From Neorhizobium sp. NCHU2750 (lineage in GTDB: Bacteria > Pseudomonadota > Alphaproteobacteria > Rhizobiales > Rhizobiaceae): a stretch of 64,000 bases of DNA. Every line of letters starts with the position of its first letter. Within the stretch, counting starts at the first letter, position 1. Position numbers and translations under genes: made by a program. A model generated the notes under the pieces. It made no database searches, had not been told where the DNA came from, and worked only from the letters and a program-made list of their open reading frames with translations. The DNA is taken from contig NZ_CP030830.1 in the NCBI RefSeq assembly GCF_003597675.1, positions 316,326-380,325 on the forward strand, read 5' to 3'. Positions 36,916-63,705 of this stretch are shown here, in pieces.

Positions 36916-36943
36916 TATCTTCCCCTTTTTGTGGATTGGATTT

Positions 36944-38859: not shown

Positions 38860-38869
38860 CGCATCGACC

Positions 38870-41665: not shown

Positions 41666-41825
41666 CTCTCGATCCTCCTGTGCCACCACCTCGTTGAGGC
41701 ATGTCTAGGGCAGACCGAGCAATCTGGCACTCCATTATAGCAAAAACTTATCCAAGCACACTAAATTTAAATTAGCACGATTTGCGGGCGTGGCGCCAAA
41801 TAGCACCTACTGGAAGGAGGATCCA

Positions 41826-41951
41826 ATGCAGATCTATGACAATTCCGGACGCCCATGCTTCGTTTCGTACGGCTGGACGGCCACCACTTCAATTATCATT
41901 TTGAAAGCACGATTGCAGGCGCAGTATTCTATCGAGGGGAGTGCGGCATGA
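41826..41951 (+). CDS. Small ORF coupled to the MFS gene (41 aa)
   Basis: The ATG at 41826 follows a near-perfect ribosome site, GGAAGGAGGATCCA. The frame gives 41 residues and stops with TGA at 41949-41951, overlapping the MFS ATG at 41948. It is not recognised. The strong RBS and ATGA coupling suggest a leader peptide that helps translate the transporter gene, or the remnant of a longer gene. Confidence 0.5.
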   Translation: MQIYDNSGRPCFVSYGWTATTSIIILKARLQAQYSIEGSAA

Positions 41952-43234: not shown

Positions 43235-43277
43235 GAAATCGGCAGTCCGTTGCGGATCGAGGTATTCAACGGACTGT

Positions 43278-44450
43278 CTAGTCTGCGGCGGTGCAGGCAT
43301 CAGACACCAGCGCCAGGAACTGCGTCTGGGCCTTGGTTGGCATCCAGTCCAGACGCCGTGTCAGCCCAATAGGCCTCGCGGTGTGGCTGAGATCAAGTGG
43401 CAACGCCTTCAGCAACCCGCGAGAAAGCTCGGCTTGAGCCTGAAGATAGGAAATACATCCCAGATGATCGGTGATGCTCAATAATTCACGCATGAGGATC
43501 AGTGAACTGGACTCGATAATGCTCGCAGCCACGTGCCCAGCCGTTTCGAATAGCGCATCGAAGTGTCCGCGAAGTGGAGTTCCTTTCTGGCCGACTATCC
43601 ATGGGTAGGACGCCAGTAGCTCGATCGAAATATTATCTTGGGCGGCCAGCGGATGATGGTTTCCCGCTACGACGGCCAGTGTGTCGCTGAATAGCTCCGT
43701 CTGCTCGACATCCCCAATAGGCGCCGGAAACCGTAACGCCCCGATCAGGAAATCGATCTCGCCACAGCGGAGGCGAGCGAGCAGGTCGGCATACGGTCCT
43801 TCGACGATATGGACTGGAGTTGTTGGGCGGACCTGCCGGAATGCTGCAATCGCTCGCGGCAGCAAAAAAGAACGTGACAGCGGCATTGCTCCGACAACGA
43901 CCCGACCGGCCTCCTCCTGCAGACTGTCGGCAAGATCGACTTCGGCCTGTGACAACTCGCCAAAGGCAAGTTGGGCGGCCTGTGCTAGTGCTTGTGTCAA
44001 ACGCGTTGCAACGATGCCATATGCGGTTCGCTCGAAAAGAGGACGCGCCGCTTCCTGCTCCAACTGGCCGATCGCTCGATGGACAGTCGGTTGTGCCAGC
44101 CCCATACGCCTAGCAGCTAGCGTGAAGTTTTGGCTCTCGCGGACTGCGATCAATGCCTGCAATTGTGAAGCTGTGGCAACGATATGCAGTCGGGGACCGA
44201 GCTCCTTCAATGCAGGATCAAGATAGTTGAAGGCTCGGCGTACACGTCTGGCAAGAACGTTTCCCGAAGGCGTGACGAACAATCCCTGCGGTGTACGCGT
44301 GAACAGGCTGACGCCCAGAGATCCTTCTATTTTTGAAAGGCCTTGGGTCACCGCAGGCTGTGAGAGGTTACAGATCTCTGCCGCGCGAGTGACGGAGTGG
44401 TGATCGACGACCTCGAGAAAAACCCTGAGATGACGCAGGTTATACAACAC
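43278..44450 (-). CDS. LysR-family regulator with two HTH domains
   Basis: 390 residues, about 80 longer than a usual LysR. The first HTH is at about 5-65 (SVTRAAEICNLSQPAVTQGLSK). A second LysR-like HTH segment is present at about 95-150 (NFTLAARRMGLAQPTVHRAIGQ). The effector domain follows. It is divergent from the GalB-like gene (200-base intergenic region) and convergent with the MFS gene, so it probably controls both. Confidence 0.85.
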   Translation of the reverse strand: MLYNLRHLRVFLEVVDHHSVTRAAEICNLSQPAVTQGLSKIEGSLGVSLFTRTPQGLFVTPSGNVLARRVRRAFNYLDPALKELGPRLHIVATASQLQALIAVRESQNFTLAARRMGLAQPTVHRAIGQLEQEAARPLFERTAYGIVATRLTQALAQAAQLAFGELSQAEVDLADSLQEEAGRVVVGAMPLSRSFLLPRAIAAFRQVRPTTPVHIVEGPYADLLARLRCGEIDFLIGALRFPAPIGDVEQTELFSDTLAVVAGNHHPLAAQDNISIELLASYPWIVGQKGTPLRGHFDALFETAGHVAASIIESSSLILMRELLSITDHLGCISYLQAQAELSRGLLKALPLDLSHTARPIGLTRRLDWMPTKAQTQFLALVSDACTAAD

Positions 44451-44652
44451 GGATTGCTCCCAACATGGTCGAGTGGTCAGGCGAAACTATCGACTACACT
44501 GACGCGCGCGATAAGAAGAAGCTATAGATGCTGCCACGCATAGCAAGGCATTCCAGAATGCTATAGCTAAAAATTATCGGGATGCGGTGATTTCGAATTG
44601 TGAAAGACGAGGACGGGGGATCTAATTCTAGTCGTTCGCGAAGGAGAATTTC

Positions 44653-45387
44653 ATGGCCGAAAAGAAAACCGCTCTGGTCATCAGCGCGCATGCCGCCGAC
44701 TTTGTCTGGCGCTGTGGAGGCGCGATCGCGCTGCATGCGGCGATGGGTTATGAGGTGACTGTCGTTTGCCTTTCGTTCGGCGAACGAGGTGAATCCGCCA
44801 AGCTGTGGAAGGTGCCGGGTATGACACTCGAAAGGGTAAAGGCGGCACGCCGTGCGGAATCTGAGAAAGCCGCAAAGGCATTGGGGGTTCATAAATTGAT
44901 CTGCTTTGACCTCGGGGATTATCCGTTGCGCATGACGGATGAAAACAAAGACCGCTTGGTGGATGTCATCCGCGACGTGCAGCCATCCTTCATGCTCAGC
45001 CACTCGCAGTATGACCCCTATAATACCGATCACATGTATGCCACTCAGATCGCGCTTGAAACGAGGATGATTGCGCAGGCTTGGGGGCATAACCCCGGGC
45101 AAAAGGTGCTCGGCGCGCCGCAACTTTATCTGTTTGAGCCGCACCAGACCGAGCAGATGGGGTGGAAGCCGGATGTGTTTCTCGACATTAGCGACGTCTG
45201 GGAGAAGAAGCGTGCCGCCATCGAGTGTATGGAGGGACAGGAACATCTTTGGGAGTTCTATACACGCGTGGCGCAAAACCGTGCCAACCACTTCCAGCGC
45301 AATTCCGGCGGGCAATCTGGGGGGCGGGCAACAAAGTACGCGGAAGGGTTTCAGTCCGTATTCCCGCGGACTGTGGATGAACTCTGA
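44653..45387 (+). CDS. galB: 4-oxalomesaconate hydratase-like PIG-L/LmbE-fold enzyme
   Basis: 244 residues from MAEKKTALVISAHAADFVWRCGG. The early HAAD metal site and the later SHSQYDPYNTDHMYATQ stretch are PIG-L/LmbE-fold zinc ligands. The HAADFVW variation, instead of the usual HPDD, is the version seen in GalB-type hydratases of the gallate pathway, which add water to 4-oxalomesaconate to give 4-carboxy-4-hydroxy-2-oxoadipate. It directly precedes a GalC-like aldolase. This assignment rests on motif pattern and context together. A generic PIG-L deacetylase is the alternative. Confidence 0.78.
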   Translation: MAEKKTALVISAHAADFVWRCGGAIALHAAMGYEVTVVCLSFGERGESAKLWKVPGMTLERVKAARRAESEKAAKALGVHKLICFDLGDYPLRMTDENKDRLVDVIRDVQPSFMLSHSQYDPYNTDHMYATQIALETRMIAQAWGHNPGQKVLGAPQLYLFEPHQTEQMGWKPDVFLDISDVWEKKRAAIECMEGQEHLWEFYTRVAQNRANHFQRNSGGQSGGRATKYAEGFQSVFPRTVDEL

Positions 45388-45432
45388 AGATCTCACAACA
45401 AGACAGAGCTATATTGATATTGGAGCAGTGAC

Positions 45433-46104
45433 ATGGGTGTCGTCGTCCAGAACATCGTTCGCGCCGAGCAAGGTTTGATAGACAGGCTGGCGAAAGCCGG
45501 TGTGGCAACGGTGCATGAAGCGCAGGGCCGTAAAGGCATGTTGGCAAGCTATATGCGCCCCATTTATGCTGGCGCACAAATCGCTGGCTCGGCCGTAACG
45601 ATATCGGTGCCTCCGGGAGACAACTGGATGATTCACGTTGCCATTGAGCAGTTGAAGTCGGGCGATATCCTTGTGCTGGCGCCGACCTCTCCATGCGACA
45701 ATGGTTATTTCGGCGACCTTCTGGCCACGTCGGCCGCCGCACGTGGGTGCCGCGGTCTGGTTATCGATGCAGGCGTGCGCGACATCCGTGATCTCAAGGA
45801 AATGCAGTTTCCTGTTTGGTCGAAGGCGATCTCTGCACAGGGTACGGTGAAAGAGACGTTGGGGTCGGTCAACATTCCAGTCGTTTGCGCAGGAGCGTCG
45901 GTGGATGCAGGCGACATTATCGTCGCAGATGACGATGGCGTCTGCGTCGTAAAACGTGCGGAGGCCGACGAAGTTGTGATAGCGGCTGAGAAACGCGTCG
46001 CCAACGAAGAGGCCAAACGTAAGCGGTTGTCTGCCGGAGAACTTGGCCTCGACATATATGACATGCGTCCAGCCCTGGAGCGCAAAGGGCTCAGGTACGT
46101 CTAA
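45433..46104 (+). CDS. galC: 4-carboxy-4-hydroxy-2-oxoadipate aldolase-like protein (RraA fold)
   Basis: 223 residues with the RraA/HMG-CHA aldolase fold. It has [24 protein letters not shown] near residues 95-118, whose terminal Arg-Asp is the substrate/metal site, and ends in [17 protein letters not shown]. The enzyme splits CHA into pyruvate and oxaloacetate. It follows the GalB-like gene by 45 bases, giving the last two steps of the gallate/protocatechuate 4,5-cleavage pathway. No dioxygenase (galA/ligAB) or tautomerase (galD) is in the window. Confidence 0.8.
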
Positions 46105-46494
46105 ATAACCAGTCCTGGTTTGGTCGATTGGAAGGCGTGTCATATAAGTCGGATGTCAGGGACAGATTCTTATATGCGTTGGCATTAAAACGCGTGTGAT
46201 CAGTGACAACCCTATCGTTATCCCTCCGCAAAACATTACCTTTGTGCTGTGGCTTTCTTGTCGAACTGATGATTGGTCGAGGGGGCGGCGATCAAGCGTA
46301 GGTTCGTCGTTTCCTTCAGAATGAACCGGCGATGGCAATCGAAATTTCCGCGTCGCGATCCACGTTCGACGCATCTGGACAGTCGTAGAATTGAGTATAA
46401 GCGCGACGCCACGGCACGGCCTCAGCGACGACGGGTGAACTGCGCTGATACCGTCAAATCCAGTTGGCCGCCATCCGCGCAATTGTTCTGTGAG
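46105..46494. other. Intergenic region
   Basis: About 390 bases between the GalC-like gene and the end of the AraC gene. No supported gene or clear terminator is seen. Confidence 0.4.
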
Positions 46495-47385
46495 CTACCA
46501 ATTCCACCTACTTCGATAATCCAGAGGTGTCATCCCGGTTATGCGTCTGAAGGTATTGGAAAAATGGCTCGAGCTCGAAAATCCGCAGGACAGCGCAATG
46601 TCCGTTATGCTCAATGCCGTGCTGCGGAGATGACCCTGGGCCCGTTCGATCCTTCGTCGGACTATGAACGTGTGCGGAGGATAGCCAACGGACTGCCGGA
46701 ATGCCCGGCAAAAATGTGGAACGCTGAGACCGAGTTGGTCAGCCATCTCTGAAAGCGAGAGTTCCGATATTGCATTCTCATCGATGAGTTCGAGGATGTG
46801 ATGGAGGTGTGATCTTGTCAGGCCGCCCTTCTGCATAGAAACAGTATGCCGGTCTTTCCGGAGCAACTGGGCGAAGATCGTCGCGATATAGGCTTCGGTC
46901 ACCATCATGCTGAGCGGGTTTCGGGTGGTGATTTCTCCGGCAATACCTTGGGCGGCGTTCATGATCACAGGATCCTCGAAGCCAAGATCGGGCGACAAGG
47001 TCAAAGCCGAGCGATCAGGCAGATCGGCGCAGAGGGTGGCGATCAACGTTGGATCTATCGAGATCGAAAGATAGGCGGCTGTCGATGCGCCTGCCTCCCA
47101 GCCCCGCCAATCGCATCCGGCGGGGATGAACAGAAGAGCGCCTGGTCGCCGCTGAACGAACGTCGCGCTCCGACCATTCAAGGTATATTGGCCCTGCTCG
47201 GAAGCGCCTTTTAGGTTGAGAACAACGAGGTGTCGGTCCGACAGGACGGCGGTCTCTTCTTTCCCGAGCCCGGTTCGCTCGACGATTTCGGCGTCGATGA
47301 ACCGCCAAGTACGGCTTCGGCGTGAAATTGTCCGGCACGATCCGCGTTTGAGGTTTGAATGTTGCATCGCGAATTGACCGGTCAT
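46495..47385 (-). CDS. AraC-family regulator (first paralogue)
   Basis: 296 residues from MTGQFAMQHSNLKRG, with GGAGGCAAGTCT upstream. The N-terminal ligand domain contains RRPGALLFIPAGCDWRGWEAG. The C-terminal AraC HTH pair is complete (SLSEMADQLGLSVPHFCRAFRQ, then DIALSCGFSSSSHFSNTFRR). It resembles the second AraC at 49362, and the pair brackets an MFS exporter gene. The role is unknown but the position suggests control of the exporter or of the adjacent quorum-sensing island. Confidence 0.85.
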   Translation of the reverse strand: MTGQFAMQHSNLKRGSCRTISRRSRTWRFIDAEIVERTGLGKEETAVLSDRHLVVLNLKGASEQGQYTLNGRSATFVQRRPGALLFIPAGCDWRGWEAGASTAAYLSISIDPTLIATLCADLPDRSALTLSPDLGFEDPVIMNAAQGIAGEITTRNPLSMMVTEAYIATIFAQLLRKDRHTVSMQKGGLTRSHLHHILELIDENAISELSLSEMADQLGLSVPHFCRAFRQSVGYPPHTFIVRRRIERAQGHLRSTALSITDIALSCGFSSSSHFSNTFRRITGMTPLDYRSRWNW

Positions 47386-48065
47386 AGACTTGCCTCCATG
47401 ACGAAGTGAATCCGGTAGCGGAATGATAGCTTTCCTGCCGCCTTGCGGTCGCAACGCTGTCGATCGATCGCAGGCGCCGATGGAGTGCGTTGTCGAACAC
47501 AACGTGTGAGATGTGGTCGAGTACGCGTGCCAAACCCGGAAGTATTACCAGCCACATTCAGCTGTGATCGTAGGTGCCCAGAAATATGAGGGCGCCGGAC
47601 GAGAGATCCAGTCGCGCAGGACGTTCCCATCGCGGCTTCCAGTGGATGCGGCCGCTGGTTCTGAGAGATATTATGGTGTTTCATCATGCACTCCCCGTCG
47701 AGAGAGTTTGTCGCGGTGCGTCCCCGCGATAGACTCACTAAACCTCCGAATGATCGGGGAGTTTGCAACTGTACAAGACAGCCCTGAGGCCTTTAGTTCC
47801 GGAGAACCTGGACATACGCCACAGGCTCCCCGACCCGAAAGGTCAGAGAGTTTGATGCTGTATCGACCAGCACCAGTCGCTTGTAGGGGTTGCAAAGCCC
47901 CAAGGCAGTACGTGCTGCCTCGTGTATAGAATAGTCTATGCTGGCAGCTGTCGCCAGTTCTTTGTGACAGAAATGACAGCTACTGCGACTATTTAGCGCC
48001 AGCTGTAAGACGAAAGCTGCGTATTCCAGGTGTCGGGAAAGCGGCCCCCCGGTGGCTTCAACTTC
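47386..48065. other. Intergenic region with an uncertain small ORF
   Basis: About 680 bases between AraC and the MFS gene. A minus-strand frame from 47687 to 47382 (about 101 residues) begins after GGGGAGTGC and overlaps the AraC ATG by ATGA, but its composition is not protein-like enough for a call. Nothing else is recognised. Confidence 0.4.
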
Positions 48066-49253
48066 TCAGCCTGCTTTGCCGCCGTCCGGGCGGTACGCAG
48101 CCAGGAAAATAGCCGCCGTCAACAGGAGTGCCCCGTAGAGCATGAACACCGTTGACGGAGAGAAACGGTCTACACTCAGGGTGATGACGAGGAATAGTGC
48201 CAACCCGAGAGCAACGCCGGCACAATGAAATGTGCCTTTCGCGCGTCCAAGTGCCGAATGCGGGACGGTTGCCTGCAGGGTCACTTCGATCGCGACGCGG
48301 CCAAGGTTATAGAGCGTACCGACGCCGGCAAAAATGAGAAGCGACGCCGGCAAGCCCGACCATCTCAGGCTCGCAAACAGTACCGCAGTGAAGGCCAGAA
48401 TGATGATCAGCAAGGACGGGCGTCGCGCGAAGGCTGCCAAGGGGATGAGCAGAATGGCACCGAGAATCGAGCCGACCGACCAGGCGCTTTCGAGCCCTCC
48501 GAATTCCAGTGCACCACCCGAAAGTTCGTCGGCAACAAAGCTGGCTGCGAGGATGCTGACGAGTGTGCCCGCGCCATAGAGAAGTGCGAAGATCGACCCC
48601 AGACGGATGAATTGTCGTTCGATCCGAAGCGATATGGGTGGGGAAGAAGTCGCAGAACGCGCCACGGCCGAAACATTAGTCACGGCTAGCATGCAGATAG
48701 CCGACAGAAGAAAGGCCGCACTGATTGCGCCGAATGCAGCCGTCTCCCAGCTCATCGACAGAAATATTCCGACAAGGCCGGCCGCAGTCAGGCTTCCAGC
48801 CTGCATGCTGAAGAAGCAAATCGAGTTGGAGGTGTTGGATGGGAGATGTCTACCCAGGGAAGGAATCATCGCCTGCGATGTCGTGAGAGCGGCGCGATCG
48901 CAGGCCGCAAATACGATCGCCGACAACCAGATAGCCCATTCGACATTGGTGACGGTCAGCAAGGCAACGGTCAGCATCCGGATACTGTCTGCTGCGATGA
49001 AAACGCCACGCCGGTCAAAACGATCGCAGATCCATCCCGCTATCGGGCTAACGAGCAATTCGGTCAGGCTGATGATTGCGATGAAGGCTGCAACGGCTGA
49101 ACTTCCACCGTCAGCGACGAGTATCCAGGTGCATGCCACTGCATAGCCGTTGCGCGCCATGGAAGAAATGAACGTGCATGCCAGAAACCAGCGGAAATAA
49201 TGGCATCCAAAGATATCAAGAATGTTGGCCGATATCCGGCGAAGCCGAGCCAT
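48066..49253 (-). CDS. MFS transporter (efflux-like)
   Basis: 395 residues with twelve predicted spans. The SPIAGWICDRFDRRGVFI loop matches MFS motif A, and the general pattern recalls macrolide-type exporters. It is flanked by two paralogous AraC regulators and lies near an unassigned SAM-binding protein and traR. Export of a small molecule is inferred; the substrate is unknown. Confidence 0.78.
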   Translation of the reverse strand: MARLRRISANILDIFGCHYFRWFLACTFISSMARNGYAVACTWILVADGGSSAVAAFIAIISLTELLVSPIAGWICDRFDRRGVFIAADSIRMLTVALLTVTNVEWAIWLSAIVFAACDRAALTTSQAMIPSLGRHLPSNTSNSICFFSMQAGSLTAAGLVGIFLSMSWETAAFGAISAAFLLSAICMLAVTNVSAVARSATSSPPISLRIERQFIRLGSIFALLYGAGTLVSILAASFVADELSGGALEFGGLESAWSVGSILGAILLIPLAAFARRPSLLIIILAFTAVLFASLRWSGLPASLLIFAGVGTLYNLGRVAIEVTLQATVPHSALGRAKGTFHCAGVALGLALFLVITLSVDRFSPSTVFMLYGALLLTAAIFLAAYRPDGGKAG

Positions 49254-49361: not shown

Positions 49362-50297
49362 TCAGCGCCGCCAGTTTCGGCGAAATTCAATTGGGCTTGT
49401 CGCGAAGGCATTCCTGAACACCGTCGTGAAGTGGCTCGGGCTTGCGAAGCCACATTCCAGGGCAATATCGATAGCCAGGCGATCGGTTGTTCGAAGAAGA
49501 TCGGCAGCACGTTCAAGCCGATGTTCGAGCATATAGGCGTGTGGCGTCTTTCCGGTTGATTGTTTGAACGCCCGGAAAAACTGGCGTTGGCTGAGACCAA
49601 TCTCTTGGGCCAGTTCGTCCAAACTCGGTGGATCAGCCACCCTGCTCTCTATGGTCGCCACAGTGCGCCGCAGATCAAAACTTGACAGTCCGCCCTTTGC
49701 CGGCTCGAGGGCAAGCAGGCGCAGCCGTGCCAGATTCACGAACATCTGGATGGCCTGGCTTTCCACCATCATCCTGCTGATGGGATCCGGATGGGCGAGT
49801 TCTGCTGCAATCAGTTGGAGTGAGGATTCGATCGCTGGATCGCGCACACCAAGGACAGGTTTCAGATCAGGGAAATGATCAATCCCGAAAAATTTCGCGA
49901 CGAAAGCTCGGCGGATTGCCACCATCAAATAGGAGCCAGTCCTGTCTCCTTCATCCCATCCCCGCCACTCGCGGCAGGCCGGCACGAAGACGATGGAACC
50001 GGGGCGGCGGGGTGTAAAGGTGACCCTTTTGCCATCAATGAAATCCTCGCCGACTTTTGCGTCACCCATCAGATTGATCATGATCACGTGGTGCTTGGGC
50101 GCAAGCAATGTTTCCTGGCGAAATAAGCCAGTCCGCTTGACGAGATCGGCTCGGACCGTACCCCAATCCATATATCTATGGACCAGTGTTCGCTGCGTGG
50201 CCCGGCGAACGTCCTCTGGCCGGAACTCGTCTGTCTGTGACACTATCTGCACGGCCTCGGGAAAATGTGTTGGCAATCCAATCATATAAGAGCGCAT
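49362..50297 (-). CDS. AraC-family regulator (second paralogue)
   Basis: 311 residues (or 307 from a second ATG). The N-terminal domain contains RRPGSIVFVPACREWRGWDEG, nearly the same as the first AraC. The C-terminal HTH pair (SLDELAQEIGLSQRQFFRAFKQ, then DIALECGFASPSHFTTVFR) is complete. It is divergent from the SAM-binding protein gene at 50513, with about 215 bases between, so it may control that gene. Confidence 0.85.
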   Translation of the reverse strand: MRSYMIGLPTHFPEAVQIVSQTDEFRPEDVRRATQRTLVHRYMDWGTVRADLVKRTGLFRQETLLAPKHHVIMINLMGDAKVGEDFIDGKRVTFTPRRPGSIVFVPACREWRGWDEGDRTGSYLMVAIRRAFVAKFFGIDHFPDLKPVLGVRDPAIESSLQLIAAELAHPDPISRMMVESQAIQMFVNLARLRLLALEPAKGGLSSFDLRRTVATIESRVADPPSLDELAQEIGLSQRQFFRAFKQSTGKTPHAYMLEHRLERAADLLRTTDRLAIDIALECGFASPSHFTTVFRNAFATSPIEFRRNWRR

Positions 50298-50512
50298 CTG
50301 AGGTTGTCCGGCAACAAGACATGAACCGCGAGCTGCGATGATGGCACTTTTGTGACATAATGGCAGATCCTCGAAAGCAGGAGTTTTCTCGCGGGTCTAG
50401 CGTCCGAATGCACGCTGCGTGTCGGGCGGATCGGCCTCGCTCATAGACGAGGAATTCCACAGATAACTGGACCAGCGTCGCACCGTGATGTCATTCGAAC
50501 AGGTGTATTGCG

Positions 50513-51514
50513 ATGCAGGATTTCAGCGATTTTTTTCAAGAATGCGATAATGGCCCGCGACTGAACGAACTGACGGGTTTCTTCTCCGATACTGCGGCGG
50601 GTAAAAGTGGCTTCCCCTCGCGCAAGCCAGCAGTCGATATGCGGCTTCTGCCCAATGACGATCTTCTTCACCGGCTCATCCAGCTTCATTCGCGCCGCCA
50701 GGGTTTTTTCGATCAGCACTATCACGCGAGCATACCCTATCGTCTGGAGGAGGAATGCCGCATGGCGCACGCCTTGCTCCGATACAGCCAGATGCGGTCA
50801 GGTGATCTGCAATTTTACAGCCTCGGAACGGCTGAAGGGACGATGGCTCGGGTCGTATCCGAGATGAGCGGCGGCAAGATCCAGTCCCTCGCCTGCAGCC
50901 CAAACGAAGAGAACTACAAATGCTTCATGGCATTTGGCGAGCCTCTTGGAGCAAGTTTCTTCCTCGGGCCGTTTCATCGTCTGACCAAGGAGCATCTGCG
51001 ATCAACCGCCGACCTGGCCCACTTCGCCGATGGGTTCGACATTATTCTGGAGGATACGACATTTCAGATGTACTCCCCCAATCGCCTTGCGCAGATCGAG
51101 TTTGTCTCGCAGCACCTCAAGCCCGGGGGCATCTTACTGTTCCTGGAAAAATTTCGAGCTGCCGATCCGCTCGATTATCAGGCACGCGAAGAACAGAAAA
51201 ACCTCGGCTTCAAGGCCCATTACTTCGGTGCGGACGAAATTGCCCGCAAGACCGAGCTTGTCCTCAACACGATGCACGAGTGCGAGGTGTCGCTGACCGA
51301 AATGGCCGAGGCGATATACGCTCAGTTTGATCACTGCCTCGTGACGTGGAATAGCGGCAACTTCTATGGGCTCGCAGCAAGCAATGACGGGGACAACCTT
51401 GGTCGGTATCTCGCGGCCATGATGCAGCCGGCGATACCGGTGGAATACGTCTACGAGCCCAGACCCTATTGCGATCTCGCAAGCTGGATGAGGCGCCGCC
51501 GTCTGCCAACGTAA
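50513..51514 (+). CDS. SAM-binding Rossmann (methyltransferase-like) protein, unassigned
   Basis: 333 residues. The N-terminal 100 residues are helical. A motif-I-like loop, FYSLGTAEGTMARVV, is near residue 105. HLKPGGILLFLEKFRA follows near 205, typical of class-I methyltransferase motif III ('LkpGG'). The chain ends in a long region with several aromatic residues. No transit or membrane segment is seen. The substrate is unknown. It lies between an AraC gene and traR in the same direction as traR, which makes it a candidate member of the signalling module. Confidence 0.55.
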   Translation: MQDFSDFFQECDNGPRLNELTGFFSDTAAGKSGFPSRKPAVDMRLLPNDDLLHRLIQLHSRRQGFFDQHYHASIPYRLEEECRMAHALLRYSQMRSGDLQFYSLGTAEGTMARVVSEMSGGKIQSLACSPNEENYKCFMAFGEPLGASFFLGPFHRLTKEHLRSTADLAHFADGFDIILEDTTFQMYSPNRLAQIEFVSQHLKPGGILLFLEKFRAADPLDYQAREEQKNLGFKAHYFGADEIARKTELVLNTMHECEVSLTEMAEAIYAQFDHCLVTWNSGNFYGLAASNDGDNLGRYLAAMMQPAIPVEYVYEPRPYCDLASWMRRRRLPT

Positions 51515-51693
51515 CAAACCGGTTCGGTGTTTCAGAACGGTCGGCGCTCTCCTTTCGCGGATCCGCCTCCTCGTTTGGAGGCATGAAAGGGGGGCGTCCG
51601 CGCCGCCGTGACCACAGACCTCACAGCAGGGAACGTTGAAATCCCGGCCGCGGGCATCCGCTTGCGGATATCTCTGCTCGATCTGGATTTTCC

Positions 51694-52410
51694 ATGGAGC
51701 ATTGGATGGATCAGTTGATTGGTAACCTCTTGGACTTGAGTGCCGTTGTCCGAAGCCAGGCGACGCTGAAAACGTCGCTGGCAACTCTGGCGGAAAAGTC
51801 CGGCTTCAGCGGATATGGCTTTCTCAACCTACGCCCGGGGGATCTCTACGCAATCTCCAACTTCCAGGAGGAATGGCAGATGCGCTATTTTCATGAATCG
51901 CTGAGATTTATGGATCCTCGGGTCAGACAGGCTCGAAAGCAACAGTGCGCATTTGTGTGGACAGGAGACCCGAGCCGCGGGCAGCTCTCAGGCGAAGACA
52001 AGCGGTTTTATGCCGAGGCCGCACGATATGGCATACGCTCGGGCATCTCCATTCCGGTCCCGATCGCCAACGGGGCACTGGCGATACTGACATTTGCCTC
52101 TTCCGAGCCCGTCCAGACGAAACAATGGAGAATCGATTCCGTTGCGGCAGCATCTGCGGCTGCCCAGTTACACATGCTGATCGGCTATCTTCGAGTAACA
52201 CCTTCCGTTGAGGAACAGATTTACCTCAGTCCAAAGGAAGCAACCTATGCGCGATGGCTTGAGCTTGGCAAGACGGTCGAGGACACAGCCCTGATCGAGG
52301 CCGTCAAATATAACACGGTTCGGATTTCGCTTGCCGAGGTGCGGCGGCGTTATGATCTCTGTAACAATACCCAGCTCGTCGCGCTCGCCATTCGACGAAA
52401 GCTGATTTGA
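51694..52410 (+). CDS. traR: TraR, LuxR-type quorum-sensing activator
   Basis: 238 residues that follow Ti-plasmid TraR closely, from the first residues (MEHWMDQL vs MQHWLDKL). The autoinducer pocket is conserved: Trp61, Tyr65, Asp74 and Trp89 match TraR Trp57, Tyr61, Asp70 and Trp85, and RYGIRSGISIP is present. The C-terminal LuxR HTH runs about 175-238 and ends in LALAIRRKLI. It should bind an acyl-homoserine lactone and activate the two tra boxes. It lies 180 bases after the SAM-binding gene and is tail-to-tail with traM. Confidence 0.93.
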   Translation: MEHWMDQLIGNLLDLSAVVRSQATLKTSLATLAEKSGFSGYGFLNLRPGDLYAISNFQEEWQMRYFHESLRFMDPRVRQARKQQCAFVWTGDPSRGQLSGEDKRFYAEAARYGIRSGISIPVPIANGALAILTFASSEPVQTKQWRIDSVAAASAAAQLHMLIGYLRVTPSVEEQIYLSPKEATYARWLELGKTVEDTALIEAVKYNTVRISLAEVRRRYDLCNNTQLVALAIRRKLI

Positions 52411-52421
52411 TTGAGTTACCC

Positions 52422-52718
52422 TCATACGGTCGGGACGCGACCGAGAATAGCCAGGAGGCTCGTCAGGGCTGACATTTGCGCATGCATCGCAATGGTTGCT
52501 TCGAGATAGGCGACATGGGCGTCGATACTGGCCTCTGTTTCGGACCCGACATTTTCCGGTAAATTTTGAAAAAGCTCCTCGGCTGTTGCGACCAAAGCAC
52601 GGTGCTGTTTCATCGCGTTGATCGTCAGCCGTTCCTTGATCGGCTCCGAAGTGTCGGCCAATAAACCAACCAAGGGCCTGAGGGTCGCATCCTGGATGTC
52701 CTTGTTTTCTAGGATCAT
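52422..52718 (-). CDS. traM: TraM antiactivator
   Basis: 98 residues from MILENKDIQDATLRPLVGLL, after TCGGAAGGAATT. Ti TraM features are conserved: LRPL-GL near the start, THR/QHRALVATAEELFQNLPEN in the middle and EATIAMHAQMSAL near the end. TraM binds TraR and blocks its DNA binding, setting the population threshold for transfer. It is 11 bases from traR, convergent. Confidence 0.92.
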   Translation of the reverse strand: MILENKDIQDATLRPLVGLLADTSEPIKERLTINAMKQHRALVATAEELFQNLPENVGSETEASIDAHVAYLEATIAMHAQMSALTSLLAILGRVPTV

Positions 52719-53201
52719 AATTCCTTCCGAAGCTGTTGGTTGTTCGGTTGAGTTGGAACGTTTCGCGCGGTTCCGTTGTGGTAAGCAGCCACGTCTCAGG
52801 CGTTTGGCATTCGCAACTATCGACCGGAGGCGCCGTACTCTGCGGGTGTAATTATCTATAGTCGTGAGGCTGCGGCCATTCCACTGCAGTCTTGCACGAA
52901 GACATTTCACATTCGGCGACCAGTGAGAATGCCGGCCTGAATGCTGTCATCGCCATGCCCATGGATATCGAGCCCTACTGGCCGAAGGATTGGCAATATT
53001 CCTCTCAATTCGAATTCGTGGATTGGCCGCAAATCGTGCTGGATATCGTTGATCCGACCGAGACGAAACTGTTTTTGTGGCAGTCGCCACGAGTGGTGAT
53101 TTGGCTGTGAGACTGTCATCGGAAAGACAATCTGCCCCTCGCTTAAATTGTAAGGCTATTTGACGTACGTATGCGCCGTAGTTTCAGGACTGGAGGGATC
53201 C
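52719..53201. other. Intergenic region before the toxin-antitoxin pair
   Basis: About 480 bases. It holds the traM promoter on the right of its start. A rightward frame 52892-53110 is not supported by a ribosome site or recognised sequence. Nothing else is seen. Confidence 0.4.
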
Positions 53202-53510
53202 ATGCATTCTCTCAAGGATATCACGGGAGATATCGACGAACCGAATAATGCCCGGATGAATTTCCGAACGAAGGCACGCATCAAAGACGCTATCCATCGG
53301 GCAGCAGCATTGTCCGGCATGGACGATTCTACCTTCACCATGAATGCGGCATACCGCTCTGCCATCGAAACGATCGCCGCTCATGAAGCGACTGTTCTCA
53401 AGTCTGCAGATCATGCAGCGTTTTTTGCGGCTCTCGACAATCCTGCTGACCCGACAGAGCAATCGAGGGACGCCTTCACGCGTCACCGCGAGACTGTCGT
53501 TTCCCGCTGA
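53202..53510 (+). CDS. DUF1778/TacA-type antitoxin
   Basis: 102 residues from MHSLKDITGDIDE, after GGAGGGATCC. The ribbon-helix-helix region reads RMNFRTKARIKDAIHRAAALSG, followed by the toxin-neutralising C-terminal tail (FAALDNPADPTEQ). The protein should repress its own operon and bind the GNAT toxin encoded next; the antitoxin looks intact although the toxin gene is frameshifted. Confidence 0.88.
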   Translation: MHSLKDITGDIDEPNNARMNFRTKARIKDAIHRAAALSGMDDSTFTMNAAYRSAIETIAAHEATVLKSADHAAFFAALDNPADPTEQSRDAFTRHRETVVSR

Positions 53511-54051
53511 TGTCAGAGCAAGCGCAGCCCAAGCTTATCATCGAGCCGCTCGATCCGTCCAAGCACGACCAAGCGGCTTTTTCGTGTGGCGTGACCCCAC
53601 TCGATAACTTCATCAAGAAAACGGCCAACAAGCTCACAAAGGCCGACAATCTTCGCGTCTGGGTCATGACAGGGGACGGGATCTCCATCATCGGCTTTTA
53701 TGCCATCAACGCTCATTCTATCGACTATCAGGATCTCCCGGAGACATTTTCCCGGAATTGGCCAGGACACGGCTCTATCCCTGCCGCCTATATTTCGATG
53801 ATCGGCCGCGACCAGCGATTTAAGGCGGTGGATATGGAGGTGTTCTCCTTGCCGACTGCTTGCAAAGGATAGCGACCGTTGCCGATCACATCGGCACGGT
53901 GATTACCGTCCTTGACGTGCTCGATTGTGGTGACGTCGAAAGAACACAACGGCGAATGCAACTCTACACTGGATACGGTTTCCTGCCGTCTCCATTAGAC
54001 CCGACGCGTTTGTTCCTGTCCGTGGCGACGATCAAGCGGCTGCTTACATGA
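53510..54051 (+). pseudogene. GNAT (TacT-like) toxin, frameshifted
   Basis: The start overlaps the antitoxin stop. The first frame gives 120 residues up to a stop at 53870-53872, ending at GRDQRFK-. The next frame continues with GGGYGGVLLADCLQRIATVADHIG and ends at 54051. Adding one G near 53823 (AAGGCGG to AAGGGCGG) joins them into a 180-residue GNAT with an acetyl-CoA loop GxGYGG. TacT toxins acetylate charged tRNAs. As read it lacks most of the acetyl-CoA-binding half and should be inactive. Confidence 0.82.
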
Positions 54052-54072: not shown

Positions 54073-55374
54073 CTATTGAGTATAATTCCCAGGAAAGATG
54101 ATGTCCTGGTCGACAAGGACGTTGAAGCGGTAGCCTGGCCTGATCTTGATTGTCGGCTGGACATTGAGGTTCTTCGAGATCGTCTGTTCTGCGACACGGC
54201 CGAAAGTCTCGGCGAAGTTCCGGCGCGCGGCGTCGGAAGCCGTGTCCTGTGTGGCAAGGGTCGAACTCTGTGGCATCGACATATCAATACCCGCACCGAT
54301 CAAGGCGACCAGGGCTGCCGACCCGAAGGTCCTCAAATAGTGGTTGTCGACCTGGTCTTTAAATCCACCATATCCTTCGGAGTCGGTTCCCGCCATCCCA
54401 CCGATCTGCAGGGTCGATCCGTTCGGGAAGATGATGTCGGTCCAGACAACCAGCGCACGGCTCTGGCCGAACGAGACCTTGCTATCGTAGCGGCCGAACA
54501 GCTTCGTCCCCTGCGGGACAAGCAATAGGTGGCCGGTGGCACTATCGTAGACATTCTGACTGACCTGCGCCGTGATCCGCCCGGGGAGATCGGAGTTGAT
54601 GCCTGAAATCAGAGTTGCCGGGATGACCGAGCCTCGCTTGAGTTCATATTGCGACTGCTGCGGCACGACCTGATTGGGCAGATAGCCGAGGTCCTTGATG
54701 TCGGCGTTGAAGAAATCCTCCTTGGAGGCCTGGCCGTTCTGGTCGACCGACTGCCCTGCAATGCCTGCCCGCAAAGCAGCAGCGTAAAGGTCGGACGCCT
54801 CACCCCCGGGTTGGGCCGGCTGCATTCGATTTGATGCCCCACTTGTCGCCGTCGCCTTGCTCTCAACTTCCGAAATGTCGACCTTCAGCGGAGAATCTAG
54901 TGCTGCACTTTTAGCCTGCAGGCTCGCCATACGCTGCCTTTGCTGTTCGCGGGCGATCTGCTCGCGTTGCTCGCGCAGCATGCGTGCGTTCCATTCCTCA
55001 TCCGATTCCATCTGCGGGCGCTGTGCCTGACGAGGCTCAGGCCTCGCTACCGCAGGAGCGGGATGCGTCGGAACGGCTGCGGGCGGTATCGGGGCCGGCT
55101 GGAAGGCCGGAGGATCGTCCCGGTCGCCTATGATGCCGTCTTTCACGCCACGCTTCATCTGCTCAGCGAAGTTTGAGGCCGGCGCATTTCCACCTGCCTC
55201 CTCTGGCGCCTGCTGGCCAAACCGAAACCCGCGGGAGGACAGCCCGTAAACCAGAACGGCGAGGAACAGGACGGCGATGCCGATCCCGACAAACAGAGGC
55301 ACGCGATTGAGGCGCTTCATACCCTTGTCGTCGGCGGAAGGATTGGGATTGCCGAGTTGCAGCGATTGGACCAT
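54073..55374 (-). CDS. trbI: TrbI mating-pair protein (VirB10-like)
   Basis: 433 residues with one N-terminal membrane span (about 22-44), a Pro/Gln/Arg-rich middle (about 60-170) with a coiled coil, and a VirB10-like C-terminal barrel region ending in VDQDIIFPGNYTQ. It spans the inner membrane to the outer-membrane complex of the Trb type IV secretion channel. It is the last gene of the trb operon. The length is usual. Confidence 0.93.
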   Translation of the reverse strand: MVQSLQLGNPNPSADDKGMKRLNRVPLFVGIGIAVLFLAVLVYGLSSRGFRFGQQAPEEAGGNAPASNFAEQMKRGVKDGIIGDRDDPPAFQPAPIPPAAVPTHPAPAVARPEPRQAQRPQMESDEEWNARMLREQREQIAREQQRQRMASLQAKSAALDSPLKVDISEVESKATATSGASNRMQPAQPGGEASDLYAAALRAGIAGQSVDQNGQASKEDFFNADIKDLGYLPNQVVPQQSQYELKRGSVIPATLISGINSDLPGRITAQVSQNVYDSATGHLLLVPQGTKLFGRYDSKVSFGQSRALVVWTDIIFPNGSTLQIGGMAGTDSEGYGGFKDQVDNHYLRTFGSAALVALIGAGIDMSMPQSSTLATQDTASDAARRNFAETFGRVAEQTISKNLNVQPTIKIRPGYRFNVLVDQDIIFPGNYTQ

Positions 55375-55389
55375 GAACCTCTTCCGCCT

Positions 55390-55836
55390 TCAATTGCGCT
55401 TCAGGAGAGAAAGTGGGCTTGCGGGGACCGCGACGCCGTTGGTGATGGAATAGGCTCGGCCGAGTTCGAGATCATCTGTCGAGAGGCGTGCAAGGACCTG
55501 CCCATCCAGACTGGCGATCGAATATGCAAGCTCGATAGGCTTTGCCGCATCCTTTCCGGATGTCGCTTTGTCCTCGGTGACGACGGAATAGCCCCAGCCC
55601 TTCAATGCTGCCTCGAGTGCGACCGCAAAGTCCGATGTGTCCTTGTGCAGTCTGATCGGTGTCGAGGTCGATCCGGCCTGCTCGGCGAAGCGTCCAGCCA
55701 TATCGCCGGCGATCGCACTGGCGGCAGGACCGGTAATCTCGGGAGGTGCCGCGCTGGTCGTCAGGCCGTCAGTCGCCGTCTGGCACCCTGAAAGCCCGAT
55801 CAGGCATACGACCGGGAAGAGGATTTGCGGGCGCAT
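55390..55836 (-). CDS. trbH: TrbH lipoprotein
   Basis: 148 residues from MRPQILFPVVCLIGLSGC, with a lipobox LSGC at about residue 18, so it is probably anchored to a membrane by lipid. The rest has no known catalytic motif. This is TrbH of Ti-type operons; its exact role in the mating channel is not known. It lies between trbG and trbI. Confidence 0.9.
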   Translation of the reverse strand: MRPQILFPVVCLIGLSGCQTATDGLTTSAAPPEITGPAASAIAGDMAGRFAEQAGSTSTPIRLHKDTSDFAVALEAALKGWGYSVVTEDKATSGKDAAKPIELAYSIASLDGQVLARLSTDDLELGRAYSITNGVAVPASPLSLLKRN

Positions 55837-55838
55837 GG

Positions 55839-56668
55839 TTACCCTCCCCTTCTGATCGTAATCTTTTGCTGGTGCCAGCCAACACCGGACACAAGCACTA
55901 CCTTGTCGATATTGTAGTCGACGATCATCATGTTGTTCTTCATGCGGTAGTTGACGATCCGGTTCTGCCCGCCGGAAACGACAAAGAGGACAGGGGCATC
56001 CTGGCCGGAGATCGCGCGCGGAAACTGGATGTAGGTCTTTTGGCCATCCGAATAGACGCGGCTCGGACGCCACGGCGCACTTCCGCTCAGCGAATAGGAG
56101 AACGCAAGCTGTTCGGGTGGAACGCCACCGCCGGGGCCGGTCATCGCCTGGATGCGGGCATTGATGTCGGAAAGCTTCGTTGCAGCGTCCTCGGGGTATT
56201 CAAAGCCGACACGCGCCATATACTGGGTCGGATGGGACTTGAGCTGGATGTGGTATGTGCGGCGGGATGTCGTGACCACCATCGAGGTCACAAGACCCGG
56301 TTCCGACGGCTTGACAATCAGATGGATCGCCTGCCCGCCAGCGGCCCCTGAGGTGGCCGGTTCGACTTTCCAGCGGACCGTATCACCGACGAGAACGTCA
56401 CGGACGATCTCGCCGCCCTGCAATTCGATATCCAGACCTGCAGGGGTGAGCAGACCACCGGCGGCTGCGTCTCGCCGAAGAGGAAGACCACCTTTCCGTC
56501 CGGCCCGCGTGTGACGAGCCCCGTTTGTCCTCGCCATTGCCCTGACAGCGTCGTTGCCTTGACCTCATTCCGGTTCAGGCTCTGGGATGCTGCCGGCGTT
56601 GATGCAATCGTCGCAGCGGTCGCCAGCAAGATGCCAGCCAGCGCCTTTCTGTTCATTGTCCCCGTCAT
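55839..56668 (-). pseudogene. trbG: trbG (VirB9-like), single-base frameshift as read
   Basis: A signal-peptide-bearing start [21 protein letters not shown] at 56668 (or MNRK at 56656) reads through [21 protein letters not shown]. After 56434 the frame becomes nonsense (WISNC...), while the +1-related frame continues with [24 protein letters not shown] to RRGG at 55839. Inserting one base (GTCTGGATATC to GTCTGCGATATC) gives a 276-residue TrbG with the conserved C-D junction. TrbG is essential for the outer-membrane part of the channel, so the plasmid would be transfer-defective if the shift is real. A sequencing error is also possible. Confidence 0.85.
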
Positions 56669-56678
56669 TGCCCTGCCC

Positions 56679-57341
56679 TTACAGCTGTGCGGTCCAATCG
56701 AAATCGGTGACGTAGACACCGATCGGATTGAGCCGGATTGTTGCTTCATCTTGTGGTGAGGTGATCGCAATGGTCGCGATCCCGCGGAAGCGGCGGGTTG
56801 CCGTTTCTTTGCCTTTCCGGTCGCGCTCATATTCGGTCCAGTCGATCTGATAGGTCTGGTTGGACAGCGCGACGATATTGTTGACCTCGATCGCCACGGT
56901 CGCGTTGACGGCCTTCTCGAATGGCGAGTTGGCGCGGAACCAGGCGTTGATCTTCTGGGTCGAAGGATCGGAGGTGCGAAGGAGCGCATAGGTCCGATCG
57001 ATATATTGCTTCTGAACCACGGCATCCGGCGTGATCGACCGGAAGTTGGATGTGAAATTGCCGAGCGTGGCGCGGACGACGCGCGTATCGGCGTACTCGA
57101 TTTGCTGCGGGAAGCCGCCGGAGACCGTGTTGCCGAGCTTGTCGACCTCGACGATGTAGGGGACGAGCTTGACCTGGGTGCTTAGATAGAGCGCATAGCC
57201 AAAGCCGATCACGGCCATTCCAAGGCTCAATATGCCGACGGCCCGCCAGGCTGAGGCCGCCTTTACATAGGAGCCGTATCGTTCGGACCATTCCTGCCGG
57301 GCGGCAAGATACGGGTTATCCGATGCGCGTGGCGCTGCCAT
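56679..57341 (-). CDS. trbF: TrbF mating-pair protein (VirB8-like)
   Basis: 220 residues with a short cytoplasmic start, one membrane span (about 30-55) and a periplasmic VirB8-like domain. [16 protein letters not shown] and [14 protein letters not shown] are typical of TrbF. It is the inner-membrane scaffold of the channel. It begins just before trbG in the operon. Confidence 0.93.
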
Positions 57342-57365
57342 GGTGACCTTCCTGTCTATGAGTGA

Positions 57366-58544
57366 CTATTTGTCGGAGCGCTCGGGCGGCGTTGGCGACG
57401 AGGAAGACTTGCCACGCGCCTGATCGAGCTTGGCGTTCGCCAGCCCGAGGATCGACCCTGCATAGGCACCGGGAGAGCCGATCGCCTTTTCCTTGGCGGC
57501 CGATCCTGCCGCTGCGGCACCCGATCCAAAGCTCGCCTCCATGCCGCGAAGGGCGGCTCCCGCAACTGAGGAGCCCCCTGCCCTTGCCGATTGGGCGGCT
57601 GCAAAGCCAGCGCCAACGGCGCCAGCTGCAAGGAAGGCCCCGCCAGCTGCAAACGACGCGGCCTGGCCCCCGTGGCGGATGACTTCCATTCCGCCCGAGA
57701 CCGAGGCGCCTTGAACCACGCCCTGGATGATGCTCGGCACATACATGGCGATGATGAAGACGACGACGGCGATGCCCGCTATTGAAAGCGTCGTGATGAA
57801 CTGATCTGTCTCAGCCGTTGGTGCACTGGAAAGCCCAAGCATGACGGTCGAACCGATCTTGGCGATCATCACCAAGGTCATCAGCTTCATGCCGATACCG
57901 AAGGCATAAATCAGGTAGCGGATAGCAAAATCCTTGGTGAACGACGAGCCGCCCAGGCCCAGCATGATCATGCCTGCAAGCAGGCCGACATACATCTCGA
58001 CCATGACGGAGACGAAGATGGCAGCCACCAGCGAAAAGCAGATCACGACGACGCACATCGACATGACGGCTGCGATCGCCAGCGCATTGTCCTCAAAGAC
58101 ACCGAACTTAGCCTGTTGCGACATTTGCGATGCAACGCGAACCCCGGCATCAAACACCTCGGCTGGCGATGCTGAACCTCCTCCGGCGCCGATCTGATAA
58201 AGACTGTCGATGACAGCCTTCGCGAAAGCTGGGCCTTGAGTCAGCACGAAGGCGAAGAAGCCGATATACATGATGCGCCGAACCAGCTCGGCGAACCATG
58301 TTTCTAGAGAGGCAGCCTGGATCGCCAGCCAGACGGCAGCAATGCCGACCTCGATCGCAGCCAGGATCCAGAACAGCGATTTCGCGGCATCCATGACGGT
58401 GGTTTCCCAGCCTTTGGCGGCTGTTGAAACCTGGTTCTCCAGTTCTGTCAGAACTTGCCCCTGCTGCGCGAAGGCTGGCTCCGCCAAAAGCAAGCAGGCG
58501 ACACCGGCGGCCAGCGAAAAGCGGATCAGTCGATGCCTCACCAT
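57366..58544 (-). CDS. trbL: TrbL polytopic membrane protein (VirB6-like)
   Basis: 392 residues with an N-terminal hydrophobic signal and about six further spans, then a Gly/Ala-rich segment and a polar C-terminus rich in Ser and Pro. This is the TrbL/VirB6 type of channel core. It overlaps the end of trbK by 7 bases. Confidence 0.9.
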   Translation of the reverse strand: MVRHRLIRFSLAAGVACLLLAEPAFAQQGQVLTELENQVSTAAKGWETTVMDAAKSLFWILAAIEVGIAAVWLAIQAASLETWFAELVRRIMYIGFFAFVLTQGPAFAKAVIDSLYQIGAGGGSASPAEVFDAGVRVASQMSQQAKFGVFEDNALAIAAVMSMCVVVICFSLVAAIFVSVMVEMYVGLLAGMIMLGLGGSSFTKDFAIRYLIYAFGIGMKLMTLVMIAKIGSTVMLGLSSAPTAETDQFITTLSIAGIAVVVFIIAMYVPSIIQGVVQGASVSGGMEVIRHGGQAASFAAGGAFLAAGAVGAGFAAAQSARAGGSSVAGAALRGMEASFGSGAAAAGSAAKEKAIGSPGAYAGSILGLANAKLDQARGKSSSSPTPPERSDK

Positions 58545-58744
58545 TTTGGTCGCATCTCCTGCCCTTTCGGGATCGGGGCGGGCTCCTTCGCGGTCCCGAA
58601 GAATTTCTCACGGGTGGCGCGTTGCTCCTCGCTCATCTGAGGAGCAGAAGGCGCCTGGTTCCGCGCTATGACGACGGTGGTGACCGCAGCCAGGACCGCG
58701 ATGGCGGCCAGAAGTGAAATGATCGTTGTTGTACGGGTCACCAC
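58538..58744 (-). CDS. trbK: TrbK entry-exclusion-type protein
   Basis: 68 residues with one hydrophobic segment (ISLLAAIAVLAAVTTVVIA). The position between trbJ and trbL is that of TrbK, which in RP4 and Ti plasmids is an entry-exclusion lipoprotein; no cysteine lipobox is obvious here. Its last 30 residues (EKFFGTAKE...PKW) resemble the end of TrbJ. It overlaps trbJ by 7 bases. Confidence 0.85.
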   Translation of the reverse strand: MVTRTTTIISLLAAIAVLAAVTTVVIARNQAPSAPQMSEEQRATREKFFGTAKEPAPIPKGQEMRPKW

Positions 58745-59547
58745 TTCGGCTCCATCTTCTGACCATCGGGGATGGTTTGAACATCGGCATTGAAGAATTT
58801 CTCGCGACGGGCCTGGGCAAGATCCTTGTCCGACTGCTCACTCTGCAGCCATGTCCCCATCAGTGTCGCCTGTTGCGAGACGATACCGCGCAGCTTCTGC
58901 ATCTGGGCCACCTGCTGCGCGGCGATCTCATGCCCGACCTGCAGCGCCTTCATCTGCCCGTCGGCCGACTGCGACATCGAGCGCAACTGGCTCATCGTAT
59001 CCTCTTCGCTGTCGAACTGCTCCGCCGTCAGGCTTGCAGCCTTCAGCGTGCTGGCGATCGTGTCGCGGTTCGTGTTCGACCAGGTCTGATAGGTCGAGGA
59101 GAAGGTCTCAGCGTTCGGGAGATTGGTTTTCAGATCCGCATAGCTCTTAAAGCGCTGCTTCAGCAGGTCATCGGCATTGCTCATCGAGAACGAGATACTC
59201 TGACTCTGATTGACGATGCTGCGAAGCTGAGTGAGATCGCCCTCGACCTCGCCCCAGACATGGCTCGGCAACTGCGCGGTGTTCTGCAGCATGTTCTGAT
59301 AGATGTTGAGCTGGTTCTGGATCTGCTGGGCAAGCTGCGTGATCTGGGTGATCTGATTTTGGATTTGCGTGCCGGACTGACCAACCAATGAGATGAGCTC
59401 GCCATTGTTGAGGAGCTGCGTCATTTCGGTAGCACCGGTGACAGCGCCGCCGGCAAAGGCTTGATGCGGCAAGGCCGCCAAGCCGAGAGCCGAGACAAAC
59501 GATAAGACGATTGAACGCTTCGTTCGATCTGAGACGAGATTATGCAT
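58738..59547 (-). CDS. trbJ: TrbJ mating-pair protein (VirB5-like)
   Basis: 269 residues from MHNLVSDRTKRS with a signal peptide ending near QAFAGGA. The rest is strongly helical and Gln-rich (ITQLAQQIQNQLNIYQNML), as expected for a pilus-associated VirB5-type protein. Its C-terminus REKFFNADVQTIPDGQKMEP(K)W resembles the C-terminus of TrbK. It overlaps trbE by 8 bases. Confidence 0.92.
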   Translation of the reverse strand: MHNLVSDRTKRSIVLSFVSALGLAALPHQAFAGGAVTGATEMTQLLNNGELISLVGQSGTQIQNQITQITQLAQQIQNQLNIYQNMLQNTAQLPSHVWGEVEGDLTQLRSIVNQSQSISFSMSNADDLLKQRFKSYADLKTNLPNAETFSSTYQTWSNTNRDTIASTLKAASLTAEQFDSEEDTMSQLRSMSQSADGQMKALQVGHEIAAQQVAQMQKLRGIVSQQATLMGTWLQSEQSDKDLAQARREKFFNADVQTIPDGQKMEPKW

Positions 59548-61975: not shown

Positions 61976-61985
61976 CTTGGAAACC

Positions 61986-62285
61986 TCAGAAGCTCCGCCA
62001 GGGGGATGACGTGGGCAGGTAGTCGGCGCGATAGCGCATGTGCCGCACATAGACCTGCCGCATCAACGGATCGGATTTTGCCATCATTCGGAGCGCGCCA
62101 ACGACGACGATCCAGATCGCGACGCCAAAGACAGCGGAATAGACAGTCAGAACGACGAAGATCAGAATGACCGAGGCGAGCCCGGCCAGAAGAACCAGTT
62201 CCCGGTCCGCCCCCATCAGCAGGTTGGGACGCGACAGGGCGCGATGGATCCGGTTTCGATGGAGTGCGGAGCCGGCCTCAGCCAT
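61986..62285 (-). CDS. trbD: TrbD mating-pair protein (VirB3-like)
   Basis: 99 residues with a hydrophobic hairpin ([20 protein letters not shown] and a second span) and a positively charged end. This is the VirB3-like TrbD. It overlaps trbC by 8 bases, and trbE starts 10 bases later. Confidence 0.92.
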
Positions 62286-63683: not shown

Positions 63684-63705
63684 CGAGGTGCAAATTTGCA
63701 CCTCG
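63684..63705. promoter_or_regulatory. tra box in front of trbB
   Basis: A perfect dyad centred at 63694/63695, with core AGGTGCAAATTTGCACCT at 63686-63703 extended by CG on each side to 22 bases. It differs from the traA-side box at one central position. It lies about 55 bases before the trbB start, the usual distance for TraR activation. Confidence 0.85.

Follow-up and report, generated by a model that had tools for sequence, protein, structure and literature searches.

A traI-less rhizobial replicon with traR possibly captured behind an AraC-linked cassette

We analysed a 64-kb stretch of DNA from Neorhizobium sp. NCHU2750 (the window), which forms the right end of contig C4 (positions 316326–380325 of 380325) in a host genome of 6.35 Mb and 7 contigs. 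The first base of C4 is the ATG of repA, suggesting a closed replicon opened at repA; we infer that C4 is circular, its ends showing no overlap. On C4, trbB faces repA directly. The Dtr genes traG, traD and traC (minus strand) and traA, traF, traB and traH (plus strand), located by tblastn with annotated Tra proteins and by ORFs, occupy 26186–34558, and the trb mating-pair operon runs from trbI to trbB at 54073–63631 on the minus strand. Between them lie a multigene cassette, traR (51694–52410, plus strand, 238 aa) and the antiactivator gene traM (52422–52718, minus strand). TraM scored 76.4 bits against a PF09228 cut-off of 22.2; its start at 52718 was picked from the length of relatives, and the open frame extends to 52910. 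The layout traH, variable genes, traR–traM and trb resembles that of pSinA and R. oryzihabitans p5. Those plasmids have LuxR and AHL synthase genes between traM and trb, whereas C4 has in that place (53160–54051) a TacA1-type antitoxin gene and, by eye, a GNAT-like ORF. This ORF is 120 aa long in the window and 180 aa in Neorhizobium sp. JUb45 (locus L004), and its frame in the window appears split.

A sequence-only reading of this DNA had described a methyltransferase-like, SAM-binding gene about 180 bases before traR and facing the same way. Both parts of that description agree with our results: the gene (50513–51514, plus strand, 333 aa) stands on the same strand 179 bp before traR, and a confident structure model predicts for its product a class I SAM fold, nearest to CmoA, with an N-terminal helical part. 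Compared with CmoA, a carboxy-SAM synthase, the enzyme is 20% identical (TM-score 0.50 by query length), has a longer N-terminal part and stands in a cassette context with an exporter. It had no Pfam (including PF00765) or NCBIfam match at E 0.001, and on this ground we rejected the LuxI-type synthases as its family. We also rejected an AzeJ-type cyclase, as both motifs given for the azetidine-2-carboxylate synthases AzeJ/VioH in PMC11794875 (PFNxxGN and RxxYYxxC) were found in 0 of 33 rows; AzeJ/VioH entries were absent among the 50 fold matches listed, an absence that carries no weight. A defence gene was rejected too, its sole match being weak (mad2, E 0.016). The host has a second copy of the enzyme, 41% identical, at C6:164838–165779, with no AraC, MFS or traR match in the 20-kb stretch inspected (L102).

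Divergent from the enzyme gene lies AraC1, which encodes an AraC-type regulator (49362–50297, minus strand; PF12833). Beyond it are an exporter-like MFS transporter gene (48066–49253, minus strand; PF07690, with TIGR00900 below its cut-off) and a second AraC-type regulator gene, AraC2 (46495–47502, minus strand), which is a neighbour in some loci. The left part of the cassette encodes an amino-acid ABC importer (binding protein, two permeases and ATPase; 36076–40353, minus strand) in which the binding-protein frame is open, and within this region lies an alanine-racemase-type gene (36944–38161; Ala_racemase_N/C). The importer–racemase gene order is the same in pAvCG78b, in P. zundukense and in locus L160 of genome G227, which carries the same sequence as strain JUb45. 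The interval between importer and AraC2 is 6.1 kb in the window versus 2.0 kb in L160; in the window it holds extra genes for an MFS protein, a PIG-L deacetylase and an RraA-like protein (40886–46143) and, by eye, binding-protein-like and LysR-like ORFs.

We compared the locus with relatives found through 141 pattern matches, of which 136 encode relatives and the best 80 of the 136 were kept. Among these 80, a divergent AraC gene lies within 600 bp of the enzyme gene in 68 and an MFS match within 5 kb in 67, with both present in 64. The cassettes of the window, L160 and pAvCG78b also share the amino-acid ABC importer, the Alr-like racemase and the second AraC gene, and two loci (L046 and L070) have importer matches and a LysR-like gene seen by eye, with no AraC or MFS match. 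The enzyme belongs to a portable, separately controlled cassette. Counting traR and traM, a transfer gene lies within 6 kb on the 3′ side of the enzyme in 43 of the 70 loci whose 3′ flank is complete and on the 5′ side in 1 of 68 (both drawn from the best 80 of 136), a comparison that is descriptive because the cassette partly fills the 5′ side and the relatives are not independent. The same cassette also adjoins several other rhizobial transfer systems, the genes on its 3′ side including p42d-type traA, Mesorhizobium trb, virB, Ti-type traG and traR–traH.

A same-strand traR stands within 1 kb behind the enzyme gene in the window and in 4 of the 80 loci (best 80 of 136), so the SAM-binding gene does not lie far from traR in all relatives, an outcome that would have spoken against a link. 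The order is present in the window, in JUb45/G227, in pAvCG78b and in L046/L070, with 179, 134 (L004), 201 and 189 bp, respectively, between the enzyme stop and the TraR match, and these loci represent two transfer layouts and two clearly different TraR groups. Four A. vitis records, apparently from one plasmid lineage, have enzyme and traR adjacent by coordinates. We found no publication on the enzyme–traR order at the level of titles and abstract openings. Of 199 genomes drawn evenly from the family, 5 carry the enzyme (E 1e-90) and 8 carry TraR (E 1e-50), and in only one, that of the host, are the two adjacent. Of 57 genus genomes, 8 carry the enzyme (E 1e-60; 3 at no less than 75% identity) and 14 carry TraR (E 1e-50), and the two are adjacent in 2, the host (G000) and G227; both genome samples overlap with the 80 loci.

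In the other 76 of the 80 loci (best 80 of 136), no traR follows the enzyme gene on the same strand within 1 kb; the 3′ flank of L045, one of these loci, is just 79 bp long. Since the cassette is mostly without traR, the enzyme is not a dedicated partner of TraR and the cassette serves a purpose of its own. The same count would suit an explanation in which the cassette is fitness cargo, such as an antimetabolite or nutrient module, near transfer genes with no regulatory meaning. Enzyme homologues accompanied by a LysE exporter gene, found on small plasmids of E. coli and on a Streptococcus plasmid, point the same way, as does the GC content of the cassette (0.56–0.58, versus 0.61–0.62 for trb/tra), although traR has 0.55 and traM 0.54. 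However, mere cargo would leave aside the same-strand enzyme–traR order with gaps of 134–201 bp in two transfer layouts and the position of transfer genes 3′ rather than 5′ of the enzyme, for which the control is not fully fair; we regard this explanation as unlikely.

The slot before traR varies among the relatives examined, being filled by rcgA/rcgR, traH, a TonB-receptor gene or the cassette, and on pTiA47a by a hypothetical gene. By analogy, such variety would be expected if traR had repeatedly been put under different promoters. On pLN1 (L125, 4286–5705), traR lies 181 bp behind a same-strand cluster of response-regulator and cytochrome genes, possibly another capture by a different promoter.

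The intergenic region between AraC1 and the SAM-enzyme gene contains an operator-like direct repeat, TGGCAC-N14-GGCA (50342–50365, plus strand). The exact motif was found in 19 of 81 loci (best 80 of 136 plus the window), against 0.12 expected from first-order Markov shuffles. These 19 are close relatives and include the traR-bearing window, L004 and L018 as well as loci without traR; the motif is absent from the other 62, among them L046 and L070. The 179-bp gap between enzyme and traR (51515–51693, plus strand) showed no terminator-like or sigma-70-like promoter site on the plus strand in a scan confined, for promoters, to the sigma-70 type. It contains a hairpin with arms at 51545–51556 and 51585–51596, no T run and a fold z of −2.0, and its sequence is not conserved between the window and L004. 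The hairpin could end or attenuate readthrough, or the gap could hold a traR promoter.

Two 18-bp tra-box-like palindromes were found, AGGTGCAAATCTGCACCT between traC and traA (28646–28663, plus strand) and AGGTGCAAATTTGCACCT upstream of trbB in the repA–trbB interval (63686–63703, plus strand), where C5, another replicon of the host, has traI. They are the sole matches in the genome to a pattern built from both sites, which is expected to give 0 matches in shuffled windows. The traA/traC and trbB promoters are therefore likely targets of TraR, as judged from the sequence of these sites. The Ti-type site before trbB had been called empty, which holds for traI but overlooks the perfect palindrome there. 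No tra box was found upstream of traR or of the SAM-enzyme gene with up to 3 mismatches allowed. On C5 the box reads ACGTGCAGATTTGCACCT, with 2 positions unlike those of the C4 trbB box, and it falls outside the C4-derived pattern by one letter class. Genome G201, whose TraR is 53% identical, has the identical palindrome, without mismatch, in its traA/traC interval (L162), the traA/traC box of L160 has two mismatches, and no tra box was found in the fetched stretch of pRL8.

Replicon C4 (380,325 bp) has no match to PF00765, the LuxI/TraI family, at E 0.001, and a search of the replicon beyond the window thus returned no traI homologue. The host has three PF00765 genes on other replicons (255 bits on C5, 177 bits on C6 and 61 bits on C1). 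This is a traI-less replicon, then, not a traI-less cell, and the earlier statements that traR is an orphan and that an AHL synthase is missing are right for C4 and wrong for the host. The PF00765 gene of C5 adjoins trbB in the usual order repA–traI–trbB, and traR-like and traM genes are also present on C5 and C6. The trbB–repA interval across the joined ends of C4 holds no traI or traI remnant (best tblastn E 3.1), so that, if C4 is circular, no traI lies just right of the window, where one might have been suspected. Of the 13 other TraR-positive genus genomes, 4 were searched for PF00765, and the matches are strong in G227, G201 and G224. In the fourth, G226, the sole match is weak (25 bits), and its traR is possibly an orphan without any synthase; this genome encodes a TraR of the same group as that of the window (60%) and has a second TraR-like gene beside traM (L161, 6551–8871).

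The C4 TraR scored above the cut-off of the NCBIfam TraR model (258.3 versus 250 bits) and aligned end to end (1–238) with the solved TraR structures 1h0m/1l3l (E 2.5e-65). We take the residues that form the AHL pocket to be Tyr53, Trp57, Tyr61, Asp70, Trp85 and Thr129 in C58 numbering, a choice and a set of roles that we assume. The C4 TraR keeps five of these six positions (F-W-Y-D-W-T, the usual pocket being Y-W-Y-D-W-T), with Phe57 as the equivalent of C58 Tyr53. TraR and TraM had been read as well conserved, AHL pocket included; Trp61, Tyr65, Asp74 and Trp89 are present as described, but Phe57 is a departure. At positions 53-57-61-70-85-129, the pocket reads FWYDWT in the window, LWYDWN in JUb45/G227, LWYDWT in G226, LWSNWS in pRL8 and LWKNWS in pSmeSM11b. 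Tyr53 is thus altered in all five sampled TraRs near that of the window, with Leu in the four relatives. YWYDWT was read in the other 13 of the 17 rows of the tree alignment (two of them identical) and in 18 of 20 fetched loci, 5 further TraR matches in the genus genomes that had no locus being left out. The C4 TraR is 66% identical to that of L004, 59% to that of pAtCFBP6625a, 57% to that of pRL8 and ~45% to Ti-type TraR. In a tree without the pLPU83a TraR, it groups with that of L004 (100/97) and next, at a fork below the starred level (94/94), with those of pRL8 and pSmeSM11b.

Around the changed-pocket TraRs, no TraI match was found in the stretches fetched, that of L160 stopping just past traM. 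Intact pockets with no traI found in the fetched stretch also occur (pAtCFBP6625a, pAt1D1108b, M. mediterraneum and G201), so the absence of a nearby traI alone is no predictor of pocket change. Nor does the rcgA/rcgR pair track it, since L120 has rcgA/rcgR together with an intact pocket. It is plausible that Phe at the Tyr53 position gives the C4 TraR a weaker AHL dependence, and with five of six pocket positions intact the C4 TraR may still be controlled by AHL by way of other replicons. One explanation of the locus builds on the latter, as ordinary quorum sensing between replicons: the C4 TraR would bind AHL made by LuxI enzymes of other replicons, so that the lack of traI on C4 would be of no consequence, and the SAM enzyme would be unrelated cargo. 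The three LuxI genes of the host, the largely intact pocket and the near match of the C5 box to the C4 trbB box are consistent with it, as is the cross-activation between the co-resident plasmids pTi15955 and pAt15955 reported in PMC7856919. On the other hand, Tyr53 is altered in every sampled TraR around that of the window, pLPU83a of group I-C reportedly does not respond to AHL (PMC13055273), and the repeated enzyme–traR order is left unexplained. We consider this explanation possible but doubtful.

Rhizobial group I-C plasmids are already described as having traR without traI in PMC9601222 and PMC13055273; according to the former, the region between Dtr and Mpf contains rcgA and rcgR in divergent orientation to traR. 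C4 is like this group in that its transfer region has traR but lacks traI and shows the order traR–traM–trb. Its trb DNA is 78% identical to that of pRL8, which, like pSmeSM11b, we assigned to group I-C by gene order only. C4 is unlike the group in having the cassette in the place of rcgA/rcgR and a less changed AHL pocket. No match to rcgA/rcgR was found in the whole host genome at E 0.001; as a positive control, the same queries found 66–76% homologues in L118 and L120. A traI-less traR is already known, but the one on C4 has a different, portable control module in front of it. Opine control on Ti plasmids places traR under different promoters (PMC7856919), and by analogy with these Ti/Agrobacterium plasmids the C4 traR stands behind a presumed inducible uptake operon. 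Unlike in the Ti opine systems, the cassette on C4 is of the AraC type and includes a SAM enzyme and an exporter, it has no known opine, and the replicon lacks traI.

We propose, with a probability of roughly 0.5, that C4 carries a TraR-controlled, traI-less transfer system in which traR is promoter-distal, captured behind the AraC-controlled cassette. AraC1, perhaps with AraC2, would sense a small compound resembling an amino acid on which the cassette acts: the ABC system would take it up, the Alr-like enzyme would racemise it, or the SAM enzyme would make it for export through the MFS protein. AraC1 would then switch on the SAM-enzyme promoter near 50342–50365, and readthrough from this promoter would transcribe traR. 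TraR would in turn activate the tra and trb operons at the two tra boxes, against TraM, and AHL, if still required, would come from LuxI genes of other replicons or of neighbouring cells. Capture of traR is suggested by the traI-less replicon, by two tra boxes with none found at traR, by a gap in which no terminator-like or promoter-like site was found on the plus strand, by the conserved operator-like site, by the repeated enzyme–traR order, by the TraR grouping and by the altered Tyr53 position. Co-transcription, TraR binding, the ligand, the enzyme product and the need for AHL are all elements that we infer.

The SAM-binding gene had been thought either linked to the signal or unrelated to traR. 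Its recurrent adjacency favours a link, which transcriptional capture of traR explains better than an action of the enzyme on AHL, though the enzyme may have a role in signalling. Very improbable is a private density signal for traR, in which the enzyme would produce an autoinducer other than AHL and the cassette would export it, take it up again and sense it. Genes for enzyme, exporter, importer and regulator do lie together in one cassette, and in Brucella pseudogrignonensis (L077) an enzyme–MFS pair is divergent from LuxI-like and LuxR-like genes; against this, many loci have no importer or racemase match within ~6 kb, and the predicted fold by itself gives no substrate. We hold a more far-reaching version of capture to be a long shot: the cassette would make, export, take up again and sense a SAM-derived amino-acid-like compound and, by drawing traR into its own transcript, put conjugation under this non-AHL signal in place of TraI, with TraR gradually losing its AHL dependence and the Tyr53 position the first to change. 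If traR is captured by the cassette as we propose, a small molecule, rather than cell crowding alone, may govern the spread of the plasmid. How TraR is controlled in traI-less plasmids is a question posed for group I-C in PMC13055273, and for a layout related to I-C the locus offers a concrete, testable answer, an inducible cassette capturing traR. The change of Tyr53 to Phe or Leu provides a sequence marker for asking when TraR stops needing AHL.

The enzyme family extends beyond these settings. Relatives 39–49% identical lie directly 5′ of a LysE-type exporter gene, a two-gene unit found far outside rhizobia, in E. coli (L111, the 5.7-kb plasmid pAVS0578-D, and L114) and on a Streptococcus plasmid (L112), as well as in a Rhizobium MAG (L079). 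The LuxI-like protein of B. pseudogrignonensis (L077, 3833–8237) is 32% identical to TraI and the LuxR-like gene was identified by eye, giving another link of the enzyme family to quorum sensing. In a Mesorhizobium branch (L066, L068, L074, L075 and L082) the enzyme gene is followed by one for a protein of ~475 aa, which gave no Pfam match when tested in L066. Upstream of the enzyme, L066, L068 and L075 have a second methyltransferase-like gene, likewise tested in L066.
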